NCBI GenBank assembly: GCA_029261095.1
Contig: JAJDBZ010000492.1
Coordinates: 1 to 35,181, forward strand
DNA from: Candidatus Omnitrophota bacterium
GTDB lineage: Bacteria; Hinthialibacterota; Hinthialibacteria; OLB16
Direction of reading: 5' to 3'
Length of the DNA: 35,181 nt
The translations under genes and the position numbers were made by a program. Positions within the stretch are counted from its first letter, which is position 1. Each line of letters begins with the position of its first letter. The notes under the pieces were generated by a model. It saw only the letters and a list, made by a program, of their open reading frames with translations. It did no database searches and had not been told where the DNA came from. Positions 10,767 through 31,636 of this stretch are shown in pieces.

Positions 10767-12092
10767 ATGAGTGCACTTCAACAGACAGTCGCCAAAGAGG
10801 TCTCCTATTCGGGAGTCGGCCTCCACACTGGGAGCACGACCAAGGTTACTTTCAAACCGGCGCCACCCGACCATGGGTATGTATTTGTACGTACAGACCT
10901 TCCGGGGGAACCCAAGGTATCGGTCGATCCAGACAATGTCATCATTGAAGATGCGATCCGTCAGACAGCCTTAGGGTATGGCGAGGAGCGCATTTACACA
11001 GTCGAGCATGTCCTCAGCGCCTGTCGCGGAATGGGAGTCGACAACGTCATCATCGAAGTCGATGGAAATGAACCCCCGATCGCCGATGGGAGCGCGAAAC
11101 CTTTTGTCGATGTCCTCTTGGAAGCGGGATTCGTCAGCCAGGACCGTCCACGGCAATACATCACCATCAACGAACCGATCTGGTTGTTCAAGGATGGTCT
11201 CGAGTTGGCGGTCATTCCTTCGAACTCGACCGAAATCACCTTCAAGATTAATTATGACCACCCAGCAATCGGTATCGATTCCGCCAGTTTCCTGATCACT
11301 CCGGAGACCTACGCCCAAGAGATCGCACCAGCCCGCACCTTTTGTTTCCTAAGGGAGATTGAAGCACTGCGGGAACAGGGGAAAATCAAAGGCGGCTCCC
11401 TCGATTGCGCATTGGTGATCGGTGACGAAGGGTTTATCAATGAGGATCTCCGCTACCCCGATGAAATCATCCGGCACAAGATTCTCGATGTGATCGGAGA
11501 CTTCGCGCTGCTTGGAGCACCTCTCAAGGCACATATTATCGCGGTACGTTCCGGCCACGCATTCAATGTGGAGTTCGTGCAGAAAGTCGAGAAGACTCTC
11601 GGCATCAAACGCGGTCGTCCTGTATTCAATGTTCCTCTCGGATTGGGAGATATCAAGAAGATTCTGCCCCATCGTTACCCGTTCCTGATGGTGGATCGAA
11701 TCACCCAGATCGACGCGGAAACCGGGATTCACAAGGGATACAAGTCTGTCAGCGGCAACGAACCCTTCTTTGAAGGGCATTTCCCTGATCAAGCGATCAT
11801 GCCGGGCGCATTGATCCTGGAGTCGATGGCTCAGGTAGGGGCTGCCGCCATCTTGTCACTGCCTGAGAATCAAGGGAAATATGCCTACCTTCTCGGTGTG
11901 GACAAAGCCAAATTTCGTAAGCCGGTTCTCCCGGGAGATCGACTCGAAATTGAGTGCCGCCAGAAGAAATTCCGTAAGAAGATCGGATCCGTCGATTGTA
12001 CGGCTACTGTGAACGGCGAGACAGCTACCGAAGCAACGCTGACATTCGCTCTTATGGACCAGGAGTCGATGAACACTTCGGTCACCAAGTAA
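10767..12092 (+). CDS. Bifunctional UDP-3-O-acyl-GlcNAc deacetylase / 3-hydroxyacyl-ACP dehydratase (LpxC-FabZ fusion)
   Basis: LpxC part: 'SYSGVGLHTG', 'TVEHVLSAC', 'DGSAKPFVDVL', 'DEIIRHKILDVIGDFALLG'. FabZ part: 'ILPHRYPFLMVDRI', 'GNEPFFEGHFPDQAIMPGALILESMAQVGA'. Single uninterrupted ORF. Confidence 0.96.
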   Translation: MSALQQTVAKEVSYSGVGLHTGSTTKVTFKPAPPDHGYVFVRTDLPGEPKVSVDPDNVIIEDAIRQTALGYGEERIYTVEHVLSACRGMGVDNVIIEVDGNEPPIADGSAKPFVDVLLEAGFVSQDRPRQYITINEPIWLFKDGLELAVIPSNSTEITFKINYDHPAIGIDSASFLITPETYAQEIAPARTFCFLREIEALREQGKIKGGSLDCALVIGDEGFINEDLRYPDEIIRHKILDVIGDFALLGAPLKAHIIAVRSGHAFNVEFVQKVEKTLGIKRGRPVFNVPLGLGDIKKILPHRYPFLMVDRITQIDAETGIHKGYKSVSGNEPFFEGHFPDQAIMPGALILESMAQVGAAAILSLPENQGKYAYLLGVDKAKFRKPVLPGDRLEIECRQKKFRKKIGSVDCTATVNGETATEATLTFALMDQESMNTSVTK

Positions 12093-16365: not shown

Positions 16366-16446
16366 GATGTTTTTCCTTTCTCTCTTTTTTTGGTCTGGAA
16401 AGCATCTCGTGCCATCGGCATCAAACACTGCTATATTATACTGGAT

Positions 16447-17886
16447 ATGAAAACTCCAATAAACACATTTTTTACCACTCCCTTGCTCGCATGTGCCGCG
16501 TTGTGTCTTTTCTCTATCCAGATATCGATTTCTCATGGACAAACATTCGATTCCGGGCAAGGTTTTTTCCTTTCCAGCCAAGTCAATCGTGGATCCGAGG
16601 GAATCTCTGTGGGGGACATCGATGAAGATGGACACCTGGATTTCGCGACCGCCGACAATGGGTTCCTGACCCTATTTCTAGGGGATGGAGCGGGAGGTTT
16701 TCCCACAGTCCAAACCCTTGCAACGCGCCCCTCGAATGAGGTCGATTCAGTCGTGTCGGACGACAACGAGGATGTGGTCCTCTTTGAGACCACCGGAGAC
16801 GGTCATCTGGATATCCTCACTCCGAATATTCTTCCTAACTTTACAGCGCTCACCCTCTTCCGAAGCAACCCCGACTCGGTGGGTCAATTCCTGAGTCCCT
16901 CAACTCGAATCACGAATGGTGTTGGGACAAACCCCGCTGCAGCCTCTCCCATCCATCTCAACCCCGGAGTCGATTCCTTCGTCGACCTGGTCCTGGTGAC
17001 GAGCAGTACACCCAAGGTCCGCACATTCCTTGGGAATGGCGAGGGCGGTTTTTCCTCGGGCCCTGGGGTCAATCTCTCTTCCTCTCCCAGTGCATCGGGA
17101 GAAGGAATCGCGACAGCCGATATCAATCACGATGCCCTCATCGATGTCGCAGTGGTCGACCGTCAGAGAGTCTGGATTCTCTTGAATGATGGCGTGGGAG
17201 GATTCATTCGTTCATCATCGGCAACCTCTTCCTCGATTGCGGGCGAACATTTGGAATACGATGTCGCCTTAGGAGATTTCAATGGGGATACCCATATGGA
17301 TGCGGTAGTGGCTAATGGAGGAATCTTTGACAATCTGATTTCTACATTGCATTCGGTCGCTGTTTTTTTCGGGGATGGGACTGGGGGGCTGAACCCCACT
17401 CCGGTTTCGATCGATCTCGGTTCCGAAGTGGCGGATGTGGAGACGGGGGATTTCGACAACGATGGAAATCTAGACATACTTGCTGCCGTACCGGACTTCT
17501 TCTCTACCCTGGGGGGAGCCAAGATCATCCGAGGCCATGGCGACGGGACCTTTGACACCGAGAATACCGTTTCCCTTCCCGCCATGGGAATCGCTAGCGT
17601 GTGTGTAGAGACTTCCGATCTGGACCGGGATGGCAGGTTGGATGTGATTATCGGAAACGAAGGATTGATTACCGGGTCGGGGTCGGATGTCCCCGGGACC
17701 GTAGGGGTCTATTTCTCCACGCTGCCCGACATCGGCCCCGCGACTCCCACGCCCACACCGACATTAGTGATGACCCCCACTCCGACGGTTCAGAAGAGTG
17801 AAGACATCGATGGAGATGGGTTCATCAATTCGAAGGATTTGATCATCCTTCTTGAGCAACAGGGGATTCAGAATCCGAACCCATGA
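16447..17886 (+). CDS. Secreted FG-GAP/VCBS-repeat protein with Pro/Thr linker and single EF-hand (dockerin-like) tail
   Basis: Signal peptide at ATG 16447. Repeats such as 'ISVGDIDEDGHLDFATADNG', 'IATADINHDALIDVAVVD', 'VALGDFNGDTHMDAVVANGG', 'VETGDFDNDGNLDILAAV'. Tail PTPTPTPTL..DIDGDGFINSKDLIILLEQQ. Confidence 0.9.
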   Translation: MKTPINTFFTTPLLACAALCLFSIQISISHGQTFDSGQGFFLSSQVNRGSEGISVGDIDEDGHLDFATADNGFLTLFLGDGAGGFPTVQTLATRPSNEVDSVVSDDNEDVVLFETTGDGHLDILTPNILPNFTALTLFRSNPDSVGQFLSPSTRITNGVGTNPAAASPIHLNPGVDSFVDLVLVTSSTPKVRTFLGNGEGGFSSGPGVNLSSSPSASGEGIATADINHDALIDVAVVDRQRVWILLNDGVGGFIRSSSATSSSIAGEHLEYDVALGDFNGDTHMDAVVANGGIFDNLISTLHSVAVFFGDGTGGLNPTPVSIDLGSEVADVETGDFDNDGNLDILAAVPDFFSTLGGAKIIRGHGDGTFDTENTVSLPAMGIASVCVETSDLDRDGRLDVIIGNEGLITGSGSDVPGTVGVYFSTLPDIGPATPTPTPTLVMTPTPTVQKSEDIDGDGFINSKDLIILLEQQGIQNPNP

Positions 17887-18864: not shown

Positions 18865-19440
18865 TCAGGACCGCTTCTTTTTTCCTTTGAGTGCACGGTA
18901 GAGGAGGAATTGGACCGCGGTCCCCACCAGGGTGAGGGTCAACCATTTTTCCTCGAGCGAGTTTCCCTGAACCATCATGGTGGCTCCGGCAACCGCAGTT
19001 AAGACAATGAGGAGATACTTTTCGAGGAACATGAGCACGACGCCGCCGACCAATCCCGCCACCACTGGAAACCAAGGGGATTGAGGAAAGTTGCCCCACC
19101 ACCCACCGGATATTTGTTCGCAGAGATTGAACGCCTCATCGAGGCGGACGATCGAGACGACTGAGGTCAGAAATCCAATAATGAAAAGAAACAGGCGAAA
19201 TATCTTTTGGACGAGAAAATAGCCGATGGCCATTCCCACCACACCCGCTAGCACGATCATCCACAGTTCAGGACGAAAATCCGGGATGGTGAGTGTCAGG
19301 ATATCCAGGATGAGTAGCGCGCCGCCACCCCCTAAGCAGAGGCCAAGAACCTTGATCGCCAGATCAATCGCGAACCATCCCGATACAAGCAGGACCAGAC
19401 CCAAACAAAAATTGGGGTCGAGAGTCATTGAGGGTTCCAC
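18865..19440 (-). CDS. Polytopic membrane protein of unknown function (TMEM198/DUF4203-like)
   Basis: Multiple hydrophobic segments with glycine-rich motifs (GLCLGGGGALLIL, VVAGLVGGVVLMF). Confidence 0.6.
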   Translation of the reverse strand: MEPSMTLDPNFCLGLVLLVSGWFAIDLAIKVLGLCLGGGGALLILDILTLTIPDFRPELWMIVLAGVVGMAIGYFLVQKIFRLFLFIIGFLTSVVSIVRLDEAFNLCEQISGGWWGNFPQSPWFPVVAGLVGGVVLMFLEKYLLIVLTAVAGATMMVQGNSLEEKWLTLTLVGTAVQFLLYRALKGKKKRS

Positions 19441-19449
19441 AGGTGTCTC

Positions 19450-20823
19450 CTAGTCGGTGGATTTCGAAGATTGATGGATGAGGCGCTTGATCTTCGCAAG
19501 ATTTCCGGAAGCCTGGCTATCCCTCGGCGCAAGTTTAACCACTTGACTCCAGGGTTCGACCGCACCTTGGTAATCTTTCAAACGAGTCAGCGCGATCGCC
19601 AAATGTCGCCAACCCTCCACCTTTTGAGGGTCCGATGTAACGACGGCCCGGAGGGGAGTGACCGCCTCACGATCCCGGCCCTGCTGTAGGTGCTCAATTC
19701 CGAGTGCAAAATTCGCTTCGAGGTGTAGTGGATTGTGCTTGATGGTCTTCACCAATGCTTCATGACATTCATTCAGATTCCCCTGACGCTTTTGGATTTT
19801 GGCCATGAGGAACCACATCTCGGGATCCTCGGGATTGATGGCCAATCCCTCTGTTGCAACATCTTGAGCCTCTTGGATCTGGTCAGTAATCAAGAGACCT
19901 TTGGCGAAATGGACAAGAAAGAGAGGATCGTAGCGATATTCCTGGTGGAGCGGTCTCAGAATCTCGACCGCTTTTTCAGCGTCTCCGGAATCCAGAGTGA
20001 GGAATCCTTCGAGCCGCTTCAGACGGGTGTCGTTCGAGGGACTCTCTTCAAGCAAAGTAAGTCCGAGATGGATTTGACCCTGTTCCCGGTAGAGGTCGAC
20101 CAACATTTCGCAATAGGTCGGATGGCCCGGGTACTTTTCTCTCCAGAATTCCATCAACTCGGCGGCACGATTCAGATACCCATCACTCTTCAACCTACTG
20201 CACTCTGTCAAGAAGATCTCATCGTAGGTCAAGCTTAGGGGGCTGCTCTCCAAAGGTTTACCCACTCGGAGGCGTTTGATATTTTCCTGGGCCCCGTGAT
20301 GATCCGGGGTCAAGTCCAGCGCCCGTTGATAGGCTTCCTCGGCCTCCATTAATCGCCCTTCTATTTCGTGAATGTTGCCCAGGTAAAGGTACCCTCCCAC
20401 CCAGTTGGGATTGGCCTCTAAGCATTTTTTGACATCTCTCAATGCTTTCTTGGGACCTTCATGGACGAGGGATATGGCGATACAAAGCGAGGCAACATCT
20501 TCATCCTGTGGATCGAGCATGTGCAGGGACTCGTAGAGTGTGGTTGCTTTCTCGATATCTCCCGCGAGAAACTTGATTTCGGCCGATTCCCGAACCACCT
20601 CGGGGTCCTCGGGAAGGTTGCTCAGGCATCGGTCCAAGTGGGTAATGCAGTCCTTGTACTGGCCCATGGTCCGGAAGACTCTGGCAAGACCGAAATGGGA
20701 ATCGAGAAACTCCGGGTCATCATCGAGAGAACGCCGGAATTCCTCCACTGCCTGATCCAATTCTCCCCGATTGATCGAATCGAGGGCCGATTCGTATTGG
20801 GTCAGCGCGATTGAGGTTTCGAT
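19450..20823 (-). CDS. TPR-repeat protein; probable start at ATC 20823 rather than the track's TTG 20760
   Basis: Multiple TPR motifs. The frame extends upstream as (I)ETSIALTQYESALDSINRGELDQAVEEF, completing a TPR. SD GGAAAGGAG sits 7 nt upstream of ATC 20823. No in-frame ATG/GTG before the TAG stop. Confidence 0.8.
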   Translation of the reverse strand: METSIALTQYESALDSINRGELDQAVEEFRRSLDDDPEFLDSHFGLARVFRTMGQYKDCITHLDRCLSNLPEDPEVVRESAEIKFLAGDIEKATTLYESLHMLDPQDEDVASLCIAISLVHEGPKKALRDVKKCLEANPNWVGGYLYLGNIHEIEGRLMEAEEAYQRALDLTPDHHGAQENIKRLRVGKPLESSPLSLTYDEIFLTECSRLKSDGYLNRAAELMEFWREKYPGHPTYCEMLVDLYREQGQIHLGLTLLEESPSNDTRLKRLEGFLTLDSGDAEKAVEILRPLHQEYRYDPLFLVHFAKGLLITDQIQEAQDVATEGLAINPEDPEMWFLMAKIQKRQGNLNECHEALVKTIKHNPLHLEANFALGIEHLQQGRDREAVTPLRAVVTSDPQKVEGWRHLAIALTRLKDYQGAVEPWSQVVKLAPRDSQASGNLAKIKRLIHQSSKSTD

Positions 20824-20860
20824 GGTCGGTCTCCTTTCCTCATTCTATTCAGCCTTTCGC

Positions 20861-20964
20861 TCCCTAGAATATAAAGATTCGATAGTGCCAGGATGACCAC
20901 TCTTAATATGACTCGGGTGGTCCCTCTTCTTGCTGATCCAAGATAACATTGGTAGCCTAAGGGA
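20861..20964 (+). ncRNA. Possible structured 5' leader upstream of thiS
   Basis: UCCCUAG (20861-20867) can pair with CUAAGGGA (20957-20964, one bulge). Inside it GACCAC/GUGGUC (20895-20900/20917-20922) and CCAA/UUGG (20938-20941/20949-20952). Confidence 0.3.
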
Positions 20965-20998
20965 ACAATCGTTACAGGCTCCAAAGCAAAGCACGGCC

Positions 20999-21199
20999 AT
21001 GTTACTCACAGTAAACGGAAAGAACAAAGAATTTGGCGGGATATCGACTGTTTCCGACCTCCTTGGAAGTCTAGATCTAGATCCAAGAATGGTGGTTGTC
21101 GAGTTGAACGAGAAGATCGTCCGCCGAAACCTTCTCTCAGAGACTCACCTGTCAGATAAGGATTCGGTGGAGATACTTCGGTTTGTTGGCGGAGGATGA
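20999..21199 (+). CDS. ThiS-family sulfur-carrier protein (ubiquitin-like, C-terminal GG)
   Basis: 'MLLTVNGKNKEFGGISTVSDLLGSLDLDPRMVVVELNEKIVRRNLLSETHLSDKDSVEILRFVGGG'. Confidence 0.88.
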   Translation: MLLTVNGKNKEFGGISTVSDLLGSLDLDPRMVVVELNEKIVRRNLLSETHLSDKDSVEILRFVGGG

Positions 21200-22153
21200 A
21201 TGAGTTTGTCTAACCCAATTGTGGAAAAGCCGCGAGTTTTGGTTGTTGATGATGAAGAGGTGATCCGTACGCTGCTCACCTCTTTCTTCAAGAAAGACGG
21301 ACGATTCGAGGTGGACACCGCCGAGGACGGTCGGAAAGGGTTAGAGGCCCTCAACCAAGAGACTTATTCCGTAGTGATTAGCGATTTGCAGATGCCCAAC
21401 ATGGCGGGCATCCCATTCATTCGAGCCCTCAGGAGGGCTCACCCGGATATTCCGGTAATCGTTTTTACGGGGTTCGGGGAGTTTGATGATGCGATCGAGG
21501 CATTGCGCTTGGGAGCAGTCAATTTTCTCCGGAAACCAAGCGACTTGCAGAATGTCATATCTGCGGTGGGGAAAGCCCTGGAGTTATCGCGACCTCATGA
21601 AAACCGCCGGCAGGTTTTTTCGTGGGCACAATCAATGACTTCCGAACTATGGATTCCCCCATTGATCTCGAAGAAGAATTCTTGTCTTCAATTCTTGGTG
21701 GAGCCGCTGGTCCCCATGAATCTGGTAACTCCGGGTGAAGTCAAAAACGTCATCCTTTCGTTGGATGAAATTCTGAATAATGCCATCATCTATGGTGCCC
21801 TCGGAATCGATTCTGCGATTCGTGACGAACCCCAGGGTCACACAAGGTTTCAGGAAGCGATCCGCGAATGCGAGGCGATCCCAGAGAATCTAGCGAAGAG
21901 GATCAAGATAGATGCTGTTTACGGTCGCGATGAAGCGGTATTCACCATCACGGACCCTGGAAACGGGTTCGATTCCGAAAACTTGCCTGACCCCACAGAT
22001 CCGGAGAACCTGATGCGAGAACATGGACGCGGGTTGTTACTCGTCCAATGTTTTATGGATAAAATTGAGTTCAACGACCCCGGTAATTCGGTCACGATCA
22101 CCAAGAAGCGAAATCAGCCTGAAACAAGTCAGTTTCTAGAAGATTCAGATTGA
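21200..22153 (+). CDS. Response regulator (REC) fused to RsbW-like HATPase domain
   Basis: REC: 'RVLVVDDEEVIRTLL', 'VVISDLQMPNMAGIPFIRALR', 'VIVFTGFGEFDDAIEALRLGAVNFLRKP'. HATPase: 'ILSLDEILNNAIIYGA', 'FTITDPGNGFD', 'REHGRGLLLVQCFMDKIEF'. Start ATG directly abuts the thiS stop. Confidence 0.88.
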   Translation: MSLSNPIVEKPRVLVVDDEEVIRTLLTSFFKKDGRFEVDTAEDGRKGLEALNQETYSVVISDLQMPNMAGIPFIRALRRAHPDIPVIVFTGFGEFDDAIEALRLGAVNFLRKPSDLQNVISAVGKALELSRPHENRRQVFSWAQSMTSELWIPPLISKKNSCLQFLVEPLVPMNLVTPGEVKNVILSLDEILNNAIIYGALGIDSAIRDEPQGHTRFQEAIRECEAIPENLAKRIKIDAVYGRDEAVFTITDPGNGFDSENLPDPTDPENLMREHGRGLLLVQCFMDKIEFNDPGNSVTITKKRNQPETSQFLEDSD

Positions 22154-22178
22154 CCTAGAATGGACGTTTTTGGTTTTC

Positions 22179-24416
22179 CTAATTCCGAATGGCAGGAGCC
22201 GAAGTGATCTGCTCTAGAATTTGCTCGATGTTTTCGTCATCGGGAACCAACCGCATGTACTCGGTCAGATAATCCGCCGCTTTCTCAGTCTGATCGGTTC
22301 TCCAATAGAGTTCGCCCAATGCACCCAGACATTGAACCCTTCGCGATTTGCCCAAGGGCCCGGTGTCGGTCCTTGCGAGAGTGAGCGCTTCCTCATAGTG
22401 ATACAGGGCTTTCTGGGGGTTTTTGGATTCGTACAAAATGGCAACGTTGTAATGGGCATCCCAAAAGGTGGGGTTCATTTCAAGCGTTTTCTCGTAGGCG
22501 TTGATGGCCAGTCGATCCTTGGTATCGTCGTACTGGCTTTGGATGGCCACCCCATAGTTGTACCAGTCTTTGTAATTGCCACCAGAAATATCCAACAGTT
22601 TCCGATAGGAAGCCTCTGCGCGACGCCACTCTGTGGCGATCGCCGCCCTCACATCGGGTGACTCAAGGCCGCTTGCGGCCAGTTCTTGTTCGCGGGAGAA
22701 AGCAGATTTGCTGTATGCTTTGGCAAGTTCACGATAAGCCGGGGCCATGTTGGGGAAACGTTCCACGGTTTGAATCAAGATCTCGGAAGCAGCCAGATAC
22801 TTGCCCTCCTCGACCAGTTTCCTGGCTTGTCCGACCTCAACACTTGCGAGCGCTTGTTTGTATTCTTGACGGTTAGGTGAATACCGGATCGCGAGGAGGT
22901 ATTCCTCTCGGGCGAGCGGGTATTGCCCACTGGTCTCATAAATCTTCCCGAGTTCATAATGCAGCTCGGAACTTTCGGGAAAGTCGATTCGCTTGTCTCG
23001 GAAACATCGGATCGCGCCTTCCAAGTCTCCCTCTTCGTAGAACCGCTTCTTGCAGGCTTCCAGATCGAAGGTGGCTGCCCGTCGACCTTTAAACCGATCG
23101 GAAAATGAGGAACCGGATATGTCTAAAACTTCTTTCTCAAATCCCGGTGCGGGGAGCGGATCGATCACCGTTGATCCCGGTTTGGGTTGCGGGGTCGGAT
23201 AAACAATGGGATCTGCCGAAAGAAAACCATCGCTCTTGGTGGGAAGGTCGGGGTTCCTTTCGAGGTCGGGAGTGTCCACCGATATATCCGCGACCGGTCG
23301 ACCGCCAGGTGGAGATACTGAGGTGTAGGTCCCGAAGCTGCGTTCTTCCAATCGGACTGTATCAGCCTGTTTTTCGGCGGGAAGTCGAGATGTGGTTCCA
23401 AGCCCCCGTCCTCCTCGCGGTGTAATGGGCCCGGCTCCCGCGGTTGAAGCAATCTGTTGTCCATCGAGAGAGTTATACGTCCCCGCTCTTGTGCTGTCGA
23501 ACGAGAGGTCGTTATTCAAATCAAAGTTGGGCGCGGGAGACCTTGTCATGGGTGGCCCGCTTGCCACCACCTGAGTCACCAAACCGCCCCCATGAATCAG
23601 GCCACGCCCACCAGGGAGAGGTTTCCTTCCTCCCAATGCGGATTTTGTGGGAGCGATGGGACTGGAGGCCGTTTGCGATGGGCTGGGTGAGAATGAGGGA
23701 GATGCCGAACCGAAGTCTTTGAATTCGATGTTGTCGGATCCAAATGAGTTGGCGGTTTCGCTTGAATAGCCGAGATCGAGGTTGTCTTCACCCACGCCGA
23801 ACAAATCGCGGGCATCTTTGGCGAGATCCGAACCGCTTGTCGAACCCTCTCCGCGAACACTATTCACTGGGGGAGCACCCGCTGGAGTGTATTCCGACAT
23901 CTCTCTGAAGGCCGCTTCTTCGTCCATGAACTCGAATGAGTCAGTGGATCGTTCCCTTGAGGAGGTGTCGGCCACACTGTACTCGCCCATACGAGTGCCT
24001 CCGCCCGATGTGGCGGGAGACAACCTGTCGACTTCCGCTAATTCAATCTGGGCGTCGAGTTCCTCGAGCGCGACTTCTGCTTCTCGCATTCCGGGATTCT
24101 CGAGGAGCGCGAGTTCGTATTGTTTTCGAGCTTCGGGAAAACGATTCAAGTCCGCGAGAACGCCCCCGAGTTCCTGATGAATGGAGGGACTTGTATGGTA
24201 TCGGAGCGCTTCTTGATACTTGACCACGGCCGACTCGAGATTACCGGCGTCACGCAGTTCTCGCGCTTCCTCCTGGGTATCCAACGAGAGTTTCACCAGA
24301 TCTTTTTGGCTTTCGGGTTTCTTTCCCACACTACATCCGATCAGAGGGATCAGGACAAATGCGGCGGAAATCAAAATCCGAAAGGTTTTACGCTCTGAAA
24401 AGACCAATGTATTCAA
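22179..24416 (-). CDS. TPR-repeat lipoprotein with long low-complexity central region
   Basis: Lipobox-like 'VLIPLIGCSVGKK'; TPRs 'LRDAGNLESAVVKYQEALRYHTSP', 'YYEL..IYETSGQYPLAREEYLLAIRYSP', 'YNVAILYESKNPQKALYHYEEAL'; Gly/Ser/Pro-rich centre. Confidence 0.82.
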   Translation of the reverse strand: MNTLVFSERKTFRILISAAFVLIPLIGCSVGKKPESQKDLVKLSLDTQEEARELRDAGNLESAVVKYQEALRYHTSPSIHQELGGVLADLNRFPEARKQYELALLENPGMREAEVALEELDAQIELAEVDRLSPATSGGGTRMGEYSVADTSSRERSTDSFEFMDEEAAFREMSEYTPAGAPPVNSVRGEGSTSGSDLAKDARDLFGVGEDNLDLGYSSETANSFGSDNIEFKDFGSASPSFSPSPSQTASSPIAPTKSALGGRKPLPGGRGLIHGGGLVTQVVASGPPMTRSPAPNFDLNNDLSFDSTRAGTYNSLDGQQIASTAGAGPITPRGGRGLGTTSRLPAEKQADTVRLEERSFGTYTSVSPPGGRPVADISVDTPDLERNPDLPTKSDGFLSADPIVYPTPQPKPGSTVIDPLPAPGFEKEVLDISGSSFSDRFKGRRAATFDLEACKKRFYEEGDLEGAIRCFRDKRIDFPESSELHYELGKIYETSGQYPLAREEYLLAIRYSPNRQEYKQALASVEVGQARKLVEEGKYLAASEILIQTVERFPNMAPAYRELAKAYSKSAFSREQELAASGLESPDVRAAIATEWRRAEASYRKLLDISGGNYKDWYNYGVAIQSQYDDTKDRLAINAYEKTLEMNPTFWDAHYNVAILYESKNPQKALYHYEEALTLARTDTGPLGKSRRVQCLGALGELYWRTDQTEKAADYLTEYMRLVPDDENIEQILEQITSAPAIRN

Positions 24417-24561: not shown

Positions 24562-25944
24562 TTATTCTTCGCCAAACAAGGATTTTAGAACGATTTCCTT
24601 GATTTCGGTACAAGGAACCCGCGGCCCCTCCGACAAAATGGGGTTAGAGCCCATCAAAACCGGCTGGAGCTCCGGATCTTCGATGTGCCGCCCATGCGAA
24701 CCTTTGACTAGATGAGGATCGAGGGGGATGACCTCGAGCAATCCTCGAAACCCAAGTCTTTTTTTCAAGAGATAGGATCCGATCTTCACTTTGGGAAAAG
24801 CCAGGGCTGGGTCGAGGTAGAGATCCAATGGGTCGTATCCCGGTTTTCTGTGAATATCGACAGTTCTGGCGAAGTCAGGCGCGCACTCATCCTCAAGCCA
24901 GTAGTTGTAGCTAAACCAAGATCCTTTGTCGGCGACGAGGACGAGGTCTCCGGACCGATCATGATCGATACCGAATTCTTTCTGTTCATCGCGATCGAGA
25001 CAGAGTTCGACCCCATCGAGGTCTTCCATCTGTTGACGGACTTTCTCAAGGGGTGTGACAGGTGAGGTATAAACATGGGCGACCTGATGGTCCGCCACCG
25101 CGAAGGCATCGCTCGCTCCGGCATCGAGCAGTTCCAGGCCCTCTTCTTCCCGCACCTTTAAGAATCCGGCTTCGCGAAGGAGACGGTTTATCTGGATGGG
25201 ATGGTTGACCTGTTCGATTCCATACTCGCTCAAAATCAGAATTCTAACGCCTCGGTTCGAGAAATAATCGATGAGTCTTCCCACCACCTCGTCGACCTCG
25301 GCCACTGCTTTCGGGATCTCCGGATCATGGGGACCGAGTTTCTGGAGCGAGTAATCGAGGTGAGGGAGGTAGATCAAGGAGAGGGTCGGGTTCTTCCATT
25401 CGTGAACTTTCATGGAGGCTTCCGCGATCCACTTCGAGGACTCGATGGAAGACGCCGGACCCCAAAAATTGAACAGCGGAAAGGTTCCCAGTTCGGCCTG
25501 TAGACGATCCCTTAGATCGGAGGGAGAGGAATAGACATCGGGTAGTTTTCGTCCATCCGCTTTATAAATCGGACGGGGGGTCACCGAATAATCGGCACTC
25601 GAGTACATGTTGTACCACCAGAACAGGTTCGCGCAGGTGACCGATGGGTCTCGGTTCTTTGCGGTTTCCCAAACTTTCTCGCCTCCGACCAGTCGATTCG
25701 ATTGTTTCCAGAATTGAACTTCCGCCACCTCACGGTTGTACCAACCATTCCCCACAATCCCGTGACCGCTGGGGGGAAGACCCGTCAACATGCTCGATTG
25801 GACGGAACAAGTCACTGCGGGAAGAACTGGTTGAATACGCTGTGAAGAGTGCGCGGCAAGAAAGCGATTGAGGTTGGGGGTCGCTTCCCCCATCAATGAA
25901 GGGGTTAATCCAACCACGTTGATTACCGCTGTCGGGTGGGTCAT
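24562..25944 (-). CDS. eboF: Type I phosphodiesterase/nucleotide pyrophosphatase (alkaline phosphatase superfamily); EboF-like
   Basis: 'AVINVVGLTPSLMGEATPNLNRFLA', 'PAVTCSVQSSMLTGLPPSGHGIVGNGWYNRE' (catalytic Thr region), 'PHLDYSLQKLGPHDPE', 'LILSEYGIE', 'KGSHGRHIEDPELQPVLMG'; position in ebo-type operon. Confidence 0.75.
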   Translation of the reverse strand: MTHPTAVINVVGLTPSLMGEATPNLNRFLAAHSSQRIQPVLPAVTCSVQSSMLTGLPPSGHGIVGNGWYNREVAEVQFWKQSNRLVGGEKVWETAKNRDPSVTCANLFWWYNMYSSADYSVTPRPIYKADGRKLPDVYSSPSDLRDRLQAELGTFPLFNFWGPASSIESSKWIAEASMKVHEWKNPTLSLIYLPHLDYSLQKLGPHDPEIPKAVAEVDEVVGRLIDYFSNRGVRILILSEYGIEQVNHPIQINRLLREAGFLKVREEEGLELLDAGASDAFAVADHQVAHVYTSPVTPLEKVRQQMEDLDGVELCLDRDEQKEFGIDHDRSGDLVLVADKGSWFSYNYWLEDECAPDFARTVDIHRKPGYDPLDLYLDPALAFPKVKIGSYLLKKRLGFRGLLEVIPLDPHLVKGSHGRHIEDPELQPVLMGSNPILSEGPRVPCTEIKEIVLKSLFGEE

Positions 25945-25947
25945 CGA

Positions 25948-26826
25948 TTAGGTTCCTGAGACTCCGCGATGTCCCCAGACCGTTGCCAAAAAACATCCCA
26001 AGGCGATCATGAACATGAGTGGTTGTGCCATCAACGCCAGAAAAAAGGCGTCCAGCAGACACATGCCCGAGAGCCAGGTCAGGACAGCATCCTTGGTTTT
26101 GGGTGGAGATTTCCGAATGAATCCTATCGCACGCACCATCCAACCGATCCCCAAGATGAAGGCAACAAAAATCAGAAGCGGCATCAAATACGAGGGTAAG
26201 ATCAATACAGGAAGAAAGAGGATTGGCATCACCCAGGAAAGCATTCGTTGTTTGCCAAGATATCGCGCGTTTTCGCTACGAGCGATGATTGTGATCATCG
26301 AGGTGTAGACAAAGATGGTGAGACCGAACCCGATGAGGAACCACCAGACCGGCGGCCACTGCACGGTTGAAGCGGCGACCGCATACACAGTGGCGCGACA
26401 GGCGCCCATCAACAGGAAGGAACCCGCAAACTTTTTGTGGAGGGCGTTGTAGGCGGTGATCAGGCCAAGAAGGAGTAACCCAAGGTAAAACGTAGCCCCC
26501 CCAAACCAAGCCAAGATTCCGATCCCTCCCCCGAGGCAAAGAGACATAAAAGTCAGAGCGGAGAAGCGGCTCACTCTCCCCGATGGGAGGGGTCTTTCGG
26601 ATCTTTCCCGGCGGTCGATCGCTTCGTCGAACAAATCGTTCATAGCCATCCCGCCGGTGTAGAGAAGGCCGATCGCGAGAGCGACCCAGAAGGTCCCTCC
26701 CCAATCAATAGAATTTCCGACAGCGTCGATGGAACATCCCACCATGACATTGGTGAGGCATGTGGGGAGGTTCGAAATGCGCCCCAGCTCTGCGAAGGAT
26801 TTCAGCTTCGAGGGGTTTGGGGTCAC
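25948..26826 (-). CDS. eboC: UbiA-family prenyltransferase; EboC-like
   Basis: 'GRISNLPTCLTNVMVG', 'GMAMNDLFDEAIDRRERSERPLPSGRVS' (NDxxDxxxDxxxxRPxxxG-type motif), multi-TM. GTG start at 26826 overlaps the upstream gene's TGA by 4 bp; the track's 26916 start is probably too long. Confidence 0.82.
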   Translation of the reverse strand: MTPNPSKLKSFAELGRISNLPTCLTNVMVGCSIDAVGNSIDWGGTFWVALAIGLLYTGGMAMNDLFDEAIDRRERSERPLPSGRVSRFSALTFMSLCLGGGIGILAWFGGATFYLGLLLLGLITAYNALHKKFAGSFLLMGACRATVYAVAASTVQWPPVWWFLIGFGLTIFVYTSMITIIARSENARYLGKQRMLSWVMPILFLPVLILPSYLMPLLIFVAFILGIGWMVRAIGFIRKSPPKTKDAVLTWLSGMCLLDAFFLALMAQPLMFMIALGCFLATVWGHRGVSGT

Positions 26827-27995
26827 TGTCCGAAAGTCTCTTTCACCCAGTCGATTTCGCGAGCGATCCCTTCCGAGAGTTCCTCGAACTGGAGGTCTCG
26901 CGGTAGAACCTCCCAAGCGTAAGTCTCAACCTCGTAGTGTTTGACCTCGCCCTTCTCCAGGAGCGTCTGCATCCCCTCCTGGACCATCGCTTGAGTGGTT
27001 CCAACCGCGCCCTCTCTTTCCAGGAAGAGAGGCACATGGAAATGAACACGCAACTCTCCCCTAAAATCCGGTGCGATCTCTCCCAAAGCTTCGGGCAGGT
27101 CTTGAAAAAAAATGGACTCCGTACCGGTTCGTCTGACAACAGTTTGGTGAAGGTATCGATCCTCTTGGAAAGTCTGTAGTTGTCGAAGGGCATCGACTCG
27201 TTCGTCGGGATTCATCTGTTCGAAATCGATTCGAATCGCGGAAGAGATCTGGACCTTGCCGATTCGTATTCCCGATGAGGCGTAGGCGTCGATCGCCTCT
27301 CGTTGGTCTTCGAACATGACTGCGGAGTGACAGATATCATGACAGACCCGGAGGTAGCGCAAAACCGATTTTTTATCGCCTTCCTTGAGCAGGTGGTCAT
27401 CGAAGAAGGCGGTCACATCCTGGTGGCAATCCAGGAAGCAGCCCGGTTCCGGTTCCAGATTCAGGTGAATGAGTTTGCCGGATTCGTCTTCCAGTCTACG
27501 GAGGTGATCGGAGACAGAGAGCAGGTTCGCGGTGGCCTTCTCGATGTCGATTTTCGAATTCCCGCCCTTCCCCCAACCGAGGGGGAGAGTCGAGATACTT
27601 CCCTCCTCTCCCTCCTTCATCAATCCGGCCAGTATTTCGATGAGGTCGAAGGTGTAATCGAGCCGTGAGGTCTGCCCCCAATCGGGTTGGTAGACGAGGT
27701 GTTTGACTTTCGGTTGATGGAAATCCCCATGCGGGAACCCATTGAAAGTAAAGGCCTTCAATCCGCAATGATCCAACCATCGTTTCAGGTGGTCGATTCC
27801 GACCCGGTCGATCACATCGCGAGCGCTCCGTGCCGAAAGCCAAAGGCCGATGCCCATCGGCTCATTCGGAGAAACAGATTCCTTCACACGGAGCGCATGT
27901 CGTTCGAGGTTCTTGCGAGTCTCGTCCCAACTCGCTCCAGCATGGACATTGGTGCAATACCCGAGTGTGGTTCCGGGACCTAGAAGATTATCCAT
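26823..27995 (-). CDS. eboE: Sugar-phosphate isomerase/epimerase-like TIM-barrel (xylose isomerase-like); EboE-like
   Basis: 'LGYCTNVHAGASWDETRKNLERHALRVKE', 'FTFNGFPHGDFHQPKVK..VYQPDW', 'IHLNLEPEPGCFLD', 'RYLRVCHDICHSAVMFEDQREAIDAY'. Confidence 0.8.
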   Translation of the reverse strand: MDNLLGPGTTLGYCTNVHAGASWDETRKNLERHALRVKESVSPNEPMGIGLWLSARSARDVIDRVGIDHLKRWLDHCGLKAFTFNGFPHGDFHQPKVKHLVYQPDWGQTSRLDYTFDLIEILAGLMKEGEEGSISTLPLGWGKGGNSKIDIEKATANLLSVSDHLRRLEDESGKLIHLNLEPEPGCFLDCHQDVTAFFDDHLLKEGDKKSVLRYLRVCHDICHSAVMFEDQREAIDAYASSGIRIGKVQISSAIRIDFEQMNPDERVDALRQLQTFQEDRYLHQTVVRRTGTESIFFQDLPEALGEIAPDFRGELRVHFHVPLFLEREGAVGTTQAMVQEGMQTLLEKGEVKHYEVETYAWEVLPRDLQFEELSEGIAREIDWVKETFGQ

Positions 27996-28794
27996 CGACT
28001 TTGAATTTCGAGCATTGGCTCAGGAAAGTTTGGGGATTGGTAAACGAAACTTTTTCGATCTCTTCGGTGGTGTGGCCCCTCCTGGCCATTTCACGGCAGG
28101 CTTTCGGCACCGAGAGAGGATCGCTCGGCCCCCAGTCTCCGGCCGAGTTCATCCACAAGCGTTCGTTGCCATACATTTCGAGGATGTCCACCGCTCGCTG
28201 GGGCGTGCATTTGGTGTCGGGGTAGAGTGTCATCCCCGCCCAATATCCCTCATCGAGAACGATCTGCACGGTGTGTTCTTCAACATGATCGATCAGCACA
28301 CGGCCCGGGTCGATGTTCCCGTTCCGTTTGATGGCGTCCATGATCAGTTTCGTCCCCTTCAGTTTGTCTTCGAGGTGCGGTGTGTGGACCAGGATGAGTT
28401 CATTGTATTTCGAGGCGAGTGCGATTTGTTCTTCGAGGATTTGGATTTCGTTCTTGCTGTTCTTGTTCAATCCGATCTCACCTATGCCGAGAACATTGGG
28501 GCGTTCGAGAAAATCCGGAATGAGAGAGATGACTTCGCGGGCCAACCCGACATCCTCAGCCTCTTTCGGATTGATGCAGAGCCAGCTGTAGTGCTGGATT
28601 CCATAGGTCGATGCGCGAGCCGGCTCGACTTCGGTGAGTTGTCTGAAGTAATCGTAAAAACCCTGCGCGGTTTTGCGATCATAGCCGGCCCAGAAGGCCG
28701 GTTCGGTCAGGGCCACACACCCCGCCTGAGACATCTTTTGGTAATCGTCGATGGTCCGCGAGACCATATGGATGTGGGGGTCGATGTACTTCAT
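27988..28794 (-). CDS. eboB: TatD-like metal-dependent hydrolase; EboB-like
   Basis: 'KYIDPHIHMVSRTIDDYQKMSQAG', 'NVLGIGEIGLNKNSKNEIQILEEQIALASKYNELILVHTPH', 'VLIDHVEEHTVQIVLDEGYWAGMTLYPDTKCTP', 'LWMNSAGDWGPSDPLSV'. Confidence 0.82.
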   Translation of the reverse strand: MKYIDPHIHMVSRTIDDYQKMSQAGCVALTEPAFWAGYDRKTAQGFYDYFRQLTEVEPARASTYGIQHYSWLCINPKEAEDVGLAREVISLIPDFLERPNVLGIGEIGLNKNSKNEIQILEEQIALASKYNELILVHTPHLEDKLKGTKLIMDAIKRNGNIDPGRVLIDHVEEHTVQIVLDEGYWAGMTLYPDTKCTPQRAVDILEMYGNERLWMNSAGDWGPSDPLSVPKACREMARRGHTTEEIEKVSFTNPQTFLSQCSKFKVDG

Positions 28795-29090
28795 GGCTTC
28801 GCTCCCGGGTAGGTTCCAAAAGCCCCCTTGAGCCCGGCAGCCGATTCCAGGGGTTCCATTGTCGGATCGCTGAAGTGGTCGAGGACCCGCTTGGCGCGGC
28901 CCGGTTCTTCATCCGACAGGATTTTGAGGGCCTCGCGAAAAGATAGAATCCGAAAGTCCTCACCATTGTCCCCCTCTTCGGATTCAGCTCGGTCGAGGCG
29001 ATCGAGAAATGCGGCGAGGTCCAGGAGTTTGGCGCGGTGTTCCAGGTAATAGAGTTCGATGACCTGTTGTCGGTTCAATGGGCAAGACAT
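28791..29090 (-). CDS. Small (99 aa) helical protein, first gene of the ebo-type operon; function unknown
   Basis: 'ELYYLEHRAKLLDLAAFLDRLDRAESEEGDNGEDFRILSFREALKILSDE'. ATGA overlap with the eboB-like gene; 5'-most of five coupled ORFs. Confidence 0.75.
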   Translation of the reverse strand: MSCPLNRQQVIELYYLEHRAKLLDLAAFLDRLDRAESEEGDNGEDFRILSFREALKILSDEEPGRAKRVLDHFSDPTMEPLESAAGLKGAFGTYPGAKP

Positions 29091-29301: not shown

Positions 29302-29694
29302 TTATCCCTGGGTGGGTTTGACTTTGAGGTCATGAATATCGAATTTCAATAATTGGGCATCATTCGTGACCAGAGTGAATTCATGGACAATCGCGGTAGC
29401 CAGGATCAAGGCGTCCGGGATTTTCAGTCGGCGCCGCCGCCGGATTTGAATCGCTTCTTTTTCCACTTCCTCGGTGATGGGAATGACCTCGATACGATCG
29501 AGAAAGGCTATCTCTTTTTCTTGTTCTTCATCAGTGATATCGGGATAAGAAAGGAGTTCTATGCGGGTGATCTGGCTGACAGCGATTCCAAGCTCTTCTT
29601 TGAGCGAGTCTTCCAGGAAGGAGACCGCGCGCTCTTCCCCGGCGAGGAAGTCAATCGCGATATTCGTATCTAAGAGTAGATCAATCCCACTCAT
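29302..29694 (-). CDS. PIN-domain (VapC-like) toxin
   Basis: 'DLLLDTNIAIDFLAGEE', 'QITRIELLSYP', 'RRRRRLKIPDALILATAIVHEFTLVTNDAQL'. PIN acidic residues present. Confidence 0.9.
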   Translation of the reverse strand: MSGIDLLLDTNIAIDFLAGEERAVSFLEDSLKEELGIAVSQITRIELLSYPDITDEEQEKEIAFLDRIEVIPITEEVEKEAIQIRRRRRLKIPDALILATAIVHEFTLVTNDAQLLKFDIHDLKVKPTQG

Positions 29695-29917
29695 CTCTCA
29701 GCTCGCGCTGGACAGCGACACTGTTCCTTCTGGCCAGGACGGAGCCCGAGAGGGAACCGGCAAATGACATGAGATCCGGATTTGCCGATGTTCTCGCGCC
29801 TGAGGAAATCGTCAGAGTCACCTCGGCCGGGCCTGTGGGAACCTCATCGGGGAGAGTCAGATTCAGAAGGATTCGATGATCTTCCGGAACCTCGATTTGA
29901 GTACGGATCTTTTCCAT
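29681..29917 (-). CDS. Putative cognate antitoxin of the PIN toxin
   Basis: 78-aa ORF directly upstream of the PIN gene with 14-bp overlap; N-terminal 'IEVPEDHRILLNLTLPDEVPTGPAEVTLTI'. Confidence 0.72.
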   Translation of the reverse strand: MEKIRTQIEVPEDHRILLNLTLPDEVPTGPAEVTLTISSGARTSANPDLMSFAGSLSGSVLARRNSVAVQRELRDEWD

Positions 29918-29971: not shown

Positions 29972-31636
29972 TCACCCCGCCCCCGAAACCTTCCCCCAAT
30001 CCTCCAGCAGAATCAGCAGGTCCTCTGCATCGATGTTCCCATCGAGGTTAATGTCGGTAGCGTAGGTCGGGGTCGGCGTGGCGGTACTCGTCGGGGTCGG
30101 AGTGGCTGTCGGCGGTTCGCCCGCCCAGGGTGGGTGGAAGAGACGGAAGACGGTATCGCGCTCCATTTGTTCGCCCCGGCAATTCAGACCGGGATTAAAA
30201 GATTCGGAATACCATGCGACTCCCGCGAATGTGTCATCGGCGGCGCACTTGATGGTGTGCTCCCCAGAGTTCTGATCGTTCTCCTCGAAAGTGCTGACCC
30301 AAAATGTCGGCGACATCGGGTTTTGATCCGCATCGTAAAATCGCGCAACCGGCGCCCCATCCCCACCGTTTCGCCATGCGACAAAGAGGTTCCCTTCATC
30401 GGGTTGGGCATACAAATCCATCGCAGTTGGGTCAGAGAAATCGGGTGGGTCGGTGAGATCGTCGTCCGCTTGCAGCACATTGATCACTGAAGCATCGGAT
30501 AGGTCTTCCTCTACCTCCACCACGACCACACACGGGTGGTATCTGCCCAAACCATCCATCCCCCTCACCGCGATATATCCGAGACGCCTTCCCGCCGCCA
30601 CGGCACGTTCCTCACCCCCCGGTTCCAGCGACACGATACCGGGAGGAAGAGGCGCCCCGGATAAGTAATCTCCCAAATCCTTGACCACACTCCCCCCGTC
30701 ATCGAAAACCGTGGCGGTGTTGACCGCTGTCCTGACAATGAACCAAGGGTCTAATGGAATGGTTCCAGCACTTCCATAGACTCTCCCTTCCGCAACGCTT
30801 TGGCGAGCGGGAGAGTTTCGACCCGCATGGGGGTAAGCAAAGCTGGGGACCAGTACACTTCCATCGTCATCGTAGATTGAAATGACGATGATGGGCTTTC
30901 CTGGGTTCGAGAAACCGAAAACGGCTCCGGGATCACCACCGGTGCGATCCTCCGTCACCACGACGACTTGATCTTGGACGAGGGCTTCGATACCGCATGA
31001 CCGACTTGCCCCTGTTCCAGGTGTACGAGAGGGGTGGTTTTCTATCGTTCCCGCTGGAATTGACTGACCCGCGATTGCGTTAATTCTTGAGTGTATTTGA
31101 ACGAGATGCATATCACTATTCGAATTCACGTAAGAGGTGGCGCTGATTGTGTTAGTTGGTGAGATGATTTCACTAAAGTCAGCCATTCGAAATGCTGAGA
31201 AACTGAATGGAGCACTTGCCATAATTGAATAGTATCCGCCTCCTGAAACTGCAATTCCAAACCCTTCGGTATCGCTGGCACCATCCACCACTGCTCCAAG
31301 AAATCCTTGAGGGTCTTCATGATCCTTTCCATCTAGAAGAATTCCATCTGCCCTTCGAGTCCCTAAGCCAAAGATGGGATGAATCTCATAAAACATCTGA
31401 ATCGGACCGCACGGTGAGATGGCATCATGACCAAAAATGTTGACACCCGGATGAGCCAGTCCTTTCGCCCTTGCGCTCATATCCAACGAATTGAACCCAT
31501 TCCCTCCCACTTCGTATTCAGGCCAGGGTTTAATCTCCGCCGTCAGCGGAAACACATCCGCCGATTCGAGGTCCATTTGGGCGAGGGAGAGCGCGGGGAA
31601 GAGGCCGAGAAGGAGGAGGGCCGGGAGGGGGCGCAT
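29972..31636 (-). CDS. Secreted protein of unknown function with Pro/Thr linker and single EF-hand (dockerin-like) tail
   Basis: Signal peptide MRPLPALLLLGLFPALSLAQ; tail PTATPTPTSTATPTPTYATDINLDGNIDAEDLLILLEDWGKVSG. Confidence 0.8.
   Translation of the reverse strand: MRPLPALLLLGLFPALSLAQMDLESADVFPLTAEIKPWPEYEVGGNGFNSLDMSARAKGLAHPGVNIFGHDAISPCGPIQMFYEIHPIFGLGTRRADGILLDGKDHEDPQGFLGAVVDGASDTEGFGIAVSGGGYYSIMASAPFSFSAFRMADFSEIISPTNTISATSYVNSNSDMHLVQIHSRINAIAGQSIPAGTIENHPSRTPGTGASRSCGIEALVQDQVVVVTEDRTGGDPGAVFGFSNPGKPIIVISIYDDDGSVLVPSFAYPHAGRNSPARQSVAEGRVYGSAGTIPLDPWFIVRTAVNTATVFDDGGSVVKDLGDYLSGAPLPPGIVSLEPGGEERAVAAGRRLGYIAVRGMDGLGRYHPCVVVVEVEEDLSDASVINVLQADDDLTDPPDFSDPTAMDLYAQPDEGNLFVAWRNGGDGAPVARFYDADQNPMSPTFWVSTFEENDQNSGEHTIKCAADDTFAGVAWYSESFNPGLNCRGEQMERDTVFRLFHPPWAGEPPTATPTPTSTATPTPTYATDINLDGNIDAEDLLILLEDWGKVSGAG

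Follow-up and report, generated by a model that had tools for sequence, protein, structure and literature searches.

The ebo genes eboA-F were defined by Yurchenko et al. in 2016 (PMC5133447). In a second operon class recognised by the same authors, a short and poorly conserved gene, eboG, takes the place of eboA (PMC5133447). They named EboG as the substitute for EboA and found no homology between the two (PMC5133447). Hosts of the eboG class in that survey were Deinococcales, Herpetosiphon, an acidobacterium and Thermithiobacillus, and it already noted both departures from the usual gene order and genomes in which no eboD was detected. The ebo cluster is also contained in the EDB cluster of Pseudomonas fluorescens (PMC6282210). 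In Nostoc, each ebo deletion tested leaves the scytonemin monomer confined to the cytoplasm, eboD having been left out (Klicki et al. 2018, PMC6282210); a glycolipid carrier has been proposed for ebo, and loss of export on ebo deletion has been shown for Nostoc only (PMC6282210). An EboC homologue of marine Flavobacteria (Maribacter) farnesylates quinoline-like aromatic acceptors, with a preference for 8-HQA (PMC9235831).

The eboG-type operon and its first gene

The window, by which we mean the whole 35,181-nucleotide stretch of DNA analysed here, contains five adjoining genes:

eboG, 28791..29090, minus strand: 99 aa, first in the operon; small helical protein
eboB, 27988..28794, minus strand: 268 aa, TatD/amidohydrolase-type metallohydrolase
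eboE, 26823..27995, minus strand: 390 aa, xylose-isomerase-like TIM barrel
eboC, 25948..26826, minus strand: 292 aa, GTG start, UbiA-superfamily membrane prenyltransferase
eboF, 24562..25944, minus strand: 460 aa, last in the operon; type I phosphodiesterase/NPP-fold protein

As a preliminary description of this DNA had claimed, the five minus-strand reading frames run head to tail, with overlaps of 4, 8 and 4 bp in the operon order G-B-E-C followed by a 3-bp gap before eboF, all at the coordinates given there. Its assignment of the genes to the ebo cluster is likewise borne out: with the NCBIfam model TIM_EboE (NF035939), EboE reaches 432 bits (cut-off 250), and EboB, EboC and EboF align lengthwise with Ebo proteins. 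Each of these four proteins aligns over most of its length with its Ebo counterparts from either operon type. We regard it as virtually certain that the locus is an ebo operon of the eboG type (G-B-E-C-F). To the explanation as a whole, which joins this operon to an eboD partner on another contig (C459) and to the mechanism proposed below, we assign a probability of roughly 0.85. A scan for promoters and terminators returned no more sites than were found in shuffled sequences.

Directly upstream of the operon, at 29302-29917, lie a PIN-domain toxin-like gene and a small overlapping upstream partner, with the look of a VapBC-type toxin-antitoxin pair. Elsewhere in the window, a 441-aa open reading frame (10767-12092) resembles an LpxC-FabZ fusion, its translation having been judged by eye. 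The products of two further genes (29972-31636 and 16390-17886) look secreted and combine a PTPTPT-rich linker with a dockerin-like repeat at the C terminus; the former, the only one of the two included in the family scan, gave a weak Dockerin_1 match.

Gene order was compared with two sets of loci. Annotated ebo operons returned by a plasmid search with EboE include two Deinococcus records, both with the order D-G-B-E-C-F and a G protein of 108-112 aa. Relatives were collected by an EboB-alignment scan of genome contigs, in which the best 80 loci were kept from at least 574 relatives, mostly Planctomycetota and Verrucomicrobiota; among these fetched loci D-G-B-E-C-F is the commonest complete order (25 loci). 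The window differs from it solely by the missing D. What had been called an altered gene order is therefore the standard order of the eboG type, as in Deinococcus and in those 25 loci. Lack of synteny in relatives had been named beforehand as grounds for abandoning the Ebo reading; synteny is present, and the reading stands. The operon is an ordinary case of the class already described, and nothing odd is left in the features that had been flagged.

The first protein had seemed unusual, and in our scan its 99 residues matched nothing in Pfam or NCBIfam. Its blastp comparison with the two Deinococcus EboG proteins, however, gives E values of 2.5e-13 and 1.6e-10, and by this sequence homology the protein is identified as EboG, a member of a known family and not a new component. 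Besides the window, an EboG profile matches 78 of the 80 fetched eboB loci, the two Deinococcus records and Gemmatirosa. The family extends over Planctomycetota, Verrucomicrobiota, Deinococcota, Gemmatimonadota and one Acidobacteriota MAG. This breadth disposes of the suggestion that the protein is a lineage-specific partner. The 99-aa frame is a real conserved gene, with homologues upstream of eboB in most relatives. Two fetched loci (L042 and L057) showed no eboG beside eboB, perhaps through frame errors or true loss. In an alignment of 50 EboG proteins, R19, A26, D30, R31, R34, D45, R47, S74, D75, A90 and G92 are invariant, and the window protein has them all. The AlphaFold2 model predicts three helices (pLDDT 85), with a tail that is less certain but conserved and bears the motif KGAxG. 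Neither a sequence search of the PDB for a solved relative at a meaningful E value nor a fold search with the predicted structure found a match, and the 50 EboG proteins gave weak, scattered matches only against Pfam and NCBIfam. An orphan-looking gene thus now belongs to a named family that is still without a Pfam or NCBIfam model.

Being small, helical and placed directly upstream of eboB, as EboA is in eboA-type operons, the 99-aa protein might instead be a diverged EboA that was shortened in this lineage. We consider this highly improbable. Aligned with hhalign, the EboG and EboA profiles reach a probability of 0.5% (E 0.12 over 27 columns). An EboA profile had no match in 16 of 16 eboG genomes, including the present one (84% complete), whereas four eboA-type control records were matched. 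With the clear homology to Deinococcus EboG, and with the two families already judged unrelated in PMC5133447, a diverged-EboA identity was rejected.

Linkage in other genomes bears on what EboG may do. In 79 of the 82 loci where both were found, eboG is no further than 300 bp from eboB, and often overlaps it by 4 bp as in the window. EboE, EboC and EboF are absent from 21 eboG-eboB loci whose flanks both measure 4 kb or more, and EboE was found elsewhere or on another stretch in all 15 searched genomes with an isolated eboG-eboB pair or a short flank. In eboA-type plasmid loci, eboA sits directly upstream of eboB (5/5). EboG and EboA would accordingly be alternative partners of EboB, as far as gene linkage, itself no proof of contact, can indicate. 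Retention of the pair while the other genes scatter points to a complex, and we lean towards EboG as a non-catalytic partner of EboB that does EboA's job in the other operon class. That eboG and eboB persist as a pair when the other genes disperse is not described in the ebo papers cited here. Loci in which the two stand alone, with EboE elsewhere in the same genome, include L015, L019, L020, L025, L047, L055, L080 and L082.

A distant eboD and the origin of the operon

The preliminary description reported no EboD, which holds for the window and fails for the genome, where a search ruled out a missing eboD. The genome encodes two DHQ-synthase homologues. TIGR01357 identifies one of them as aroB; the other is

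eboD, C459:992-2161: EboD homologue, NF004852 score 477 bits, cut-off 333

This EboD is 42-47% identical to the EboD of other operons, compared with 27% to the aroB product of the same genome. In a tree it lies inside the eboD set, with the eboD of three loci (L016, L018 and L028), although no starred branch sets this group apart; it is nearest to the eboD of complete eboG operons, and these neighbours are close to the operon's own nearest relatives (L028, L013 and L016). No second DHQ-synthase homologue above the NF004852 cut-off was found in any of 13 class relatives. Because genes flank it on both sides within the 3,998-bp contig C459, eboD is truly unlinked from the operon, and its role with the operon therefore rests on phylogeny and co-occurrence. 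We infer that the genes arrived as a full D-G-B-E-C-F operon, from which D separated afterwards.

EboE and EboG were looked for in 13 further genomes from the same class and detected in none of them. In a concatenated B+E+C+F tree, eboG-type and eboA-type operons separate with an SH-aLRT value of 100, and the window falls among Planctomycetota operons (98), beside a Bryobacterales MAG (94); it is a tree of a quick kind, drawn from the best 80 EboB matches, so that sampling favours close relatives. Placement of these proteins outside the Ebo clades, which had been set beforehand as a refuting outcome, was not seen, B, E, C and F all falling in the eboG clade. Since the operon is absent from the 13 class relatives and nested among Planctomycetota operons, these data suggest that it was gained horizontally.

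The same absence, together with the fact that all the Ebo proteins are closest to operons of Planctomycetota or of the Bryobacterales MAG, would also be expected if the ebo contigs were binning contamination from a planctomycete. That alternative is made unlikely by the native DNA next to the operon, which directly abuts a five-gene block (18865-24416) whose order is kept in a genome of the same family (G001), and we give it very little credence. The adjoining TPR gene has full-length matches only in the two same-family genomes, the ebo genes resemble the remainder of the contig in GC and GC3, and contig C459 carries a PQQ-type protein family that is present in several copies in the class. The ebo-bearing contig is native. 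In G001, unrelated genes lie on the other side of the TPR gene.

Conserved and altered active sites

EboB matches TatD_DNase (PF01026, 1.7e-10) and is 55-58% identical to Deinococcus EboB and up to 78% identical to that of Planctomycetota. Its putative metal ligands H7, H9, E106, H137, H170 and D220 are each kept in 83 of 83 sequences. For EboE, the AlphaFold2 model has a pLDDT of 93.6, and its best fold matches in the PDB are sugar-phosphate 3-epimerases and xylose isomerases. EboC matches UbiA (PF01040, 2.2e-22); its best NCBIfam model is that for EboC itself (NF035940), although at 105 bits it stays under the cut-off of 250. We suspect that this model may rest on eboA-type sequences, hence the low score. 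Deinococcus EboC aligns with the window protein over its whole length (1e-31). The NDxxDxxxD motif is intact, as it is nearly throughout the EboC set, and ARxE takes the place of the second motif, a change shared by nearly every EboC in the set.

EboF matches Phosphodiest (PF01663, 5.5e-68), is 49-58% identical to the EboF of other operons and aligns to autotaxin/NPP. The canonical NPP ligands, established for autotaxin and bacterial NPP, are D, T, D, H / D, H, and they were located in EboF by alignment. Four of them are replaced in all 35 EboF sequences, namely that of the window and those of 34 other operons, with both operon types included: D to V/A, H to Q, D to E and H to Y. The Thr at the nucleophile position and one Asp of the canonical site are retained, and H195, D285, H286 and H290 are conserved in 35/35. 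Without the canonical metal ligands, the phosphoester hydrolysis assumed for EboF may be wrong, and a loss found across the whole set makes this activity a testable question. The passage on EboF in the original description (PMC5133447) treats the protein as a hydrolase and leaves the ligand loss unmentioned, nor is this loss described in the other ebo papers cited here. A broader reading, which we regard as somewhat doubtful, is that EboG is an obligate small partner of EboB and a non-homologous replacement for EboA, and that EboF in both classes is a pseudoenzyme or has a rebuilt one-metal site. Were EboG obligate and EboF unconventional in this way, the accepted view of ebo chemistry would need revision.

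Possible function and comparison with known ebo systems

In the mechanism that we propose, EboD would form a cyclitol by cyclisation of a sugar phosphate, for which sedoheptulose 7-phosphate has been proposed (PMC5133447) and is a possible candidate. EboE, with its sugar isomerase/epimerase fold, and the metallohydrolase EboB would tailor this cyclitol. EboC would then prenylate the tailored cyclitol in the membrane, and the resulting lipid could help a small molecule across the inner membrane, as for the scytonemin monomer in Nostoc (PMC6282210). For this organism, a lipid carrier with an export step is put forward tentatively.

A serious possibility, though short of an even chance, is that the operon's product is a secondary metabolite, secreted or bound to the capsule (a proposal made in PMC5133447 and also for the Pseudomonas EDB cluster), and not a lipid carrier for transport. 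Cyclase, isomerase, hydrolase and prenyltransferase families are what a biosynthetic pathway needs, and in E. coli a Maribacter EboC attaches a prenyl group to an aromatic acceptor (PMC9235831). Yet the Nostoc ebo deletions tested all accumulate the same scytonemin monomer, none of them an intermediate of its own (PMC6282210), and the ebo operon is spread across many phyla with different metabolites.

Among described systems, the eboG-type operon of Deinococcus (NZ_CP140100, NZ_CP097151) shares with the window the G-B-E-C-F order, B, E, C and F proteins homologous along their length and a small EboG upstream of eboB; there, however, eboD is the first gene, whereas here it lies on another contig. 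The closest relatives are the D-G-B-E-C-F operons of Planctomycetota MAGs (for example L013, L014, L016 and L018), which have the same order and tight packing and are 74-78% identical in EboB, 61-63% in EboF and 46-64% in EboG, but belong to another phylum and have a linked eboD. With the eboA-type ABCDEF operon of Bacteroidetes, Cyanobacteria, eustigmatophyte plastids, Nostoc and the Pseudomonas fluorescens EDB cluster, the present operon has homologous B, C, D, E and F in common; it differs in having the unrelated EboG for EboA, in gene order and in belonging to a separate B+E+C+F clade.
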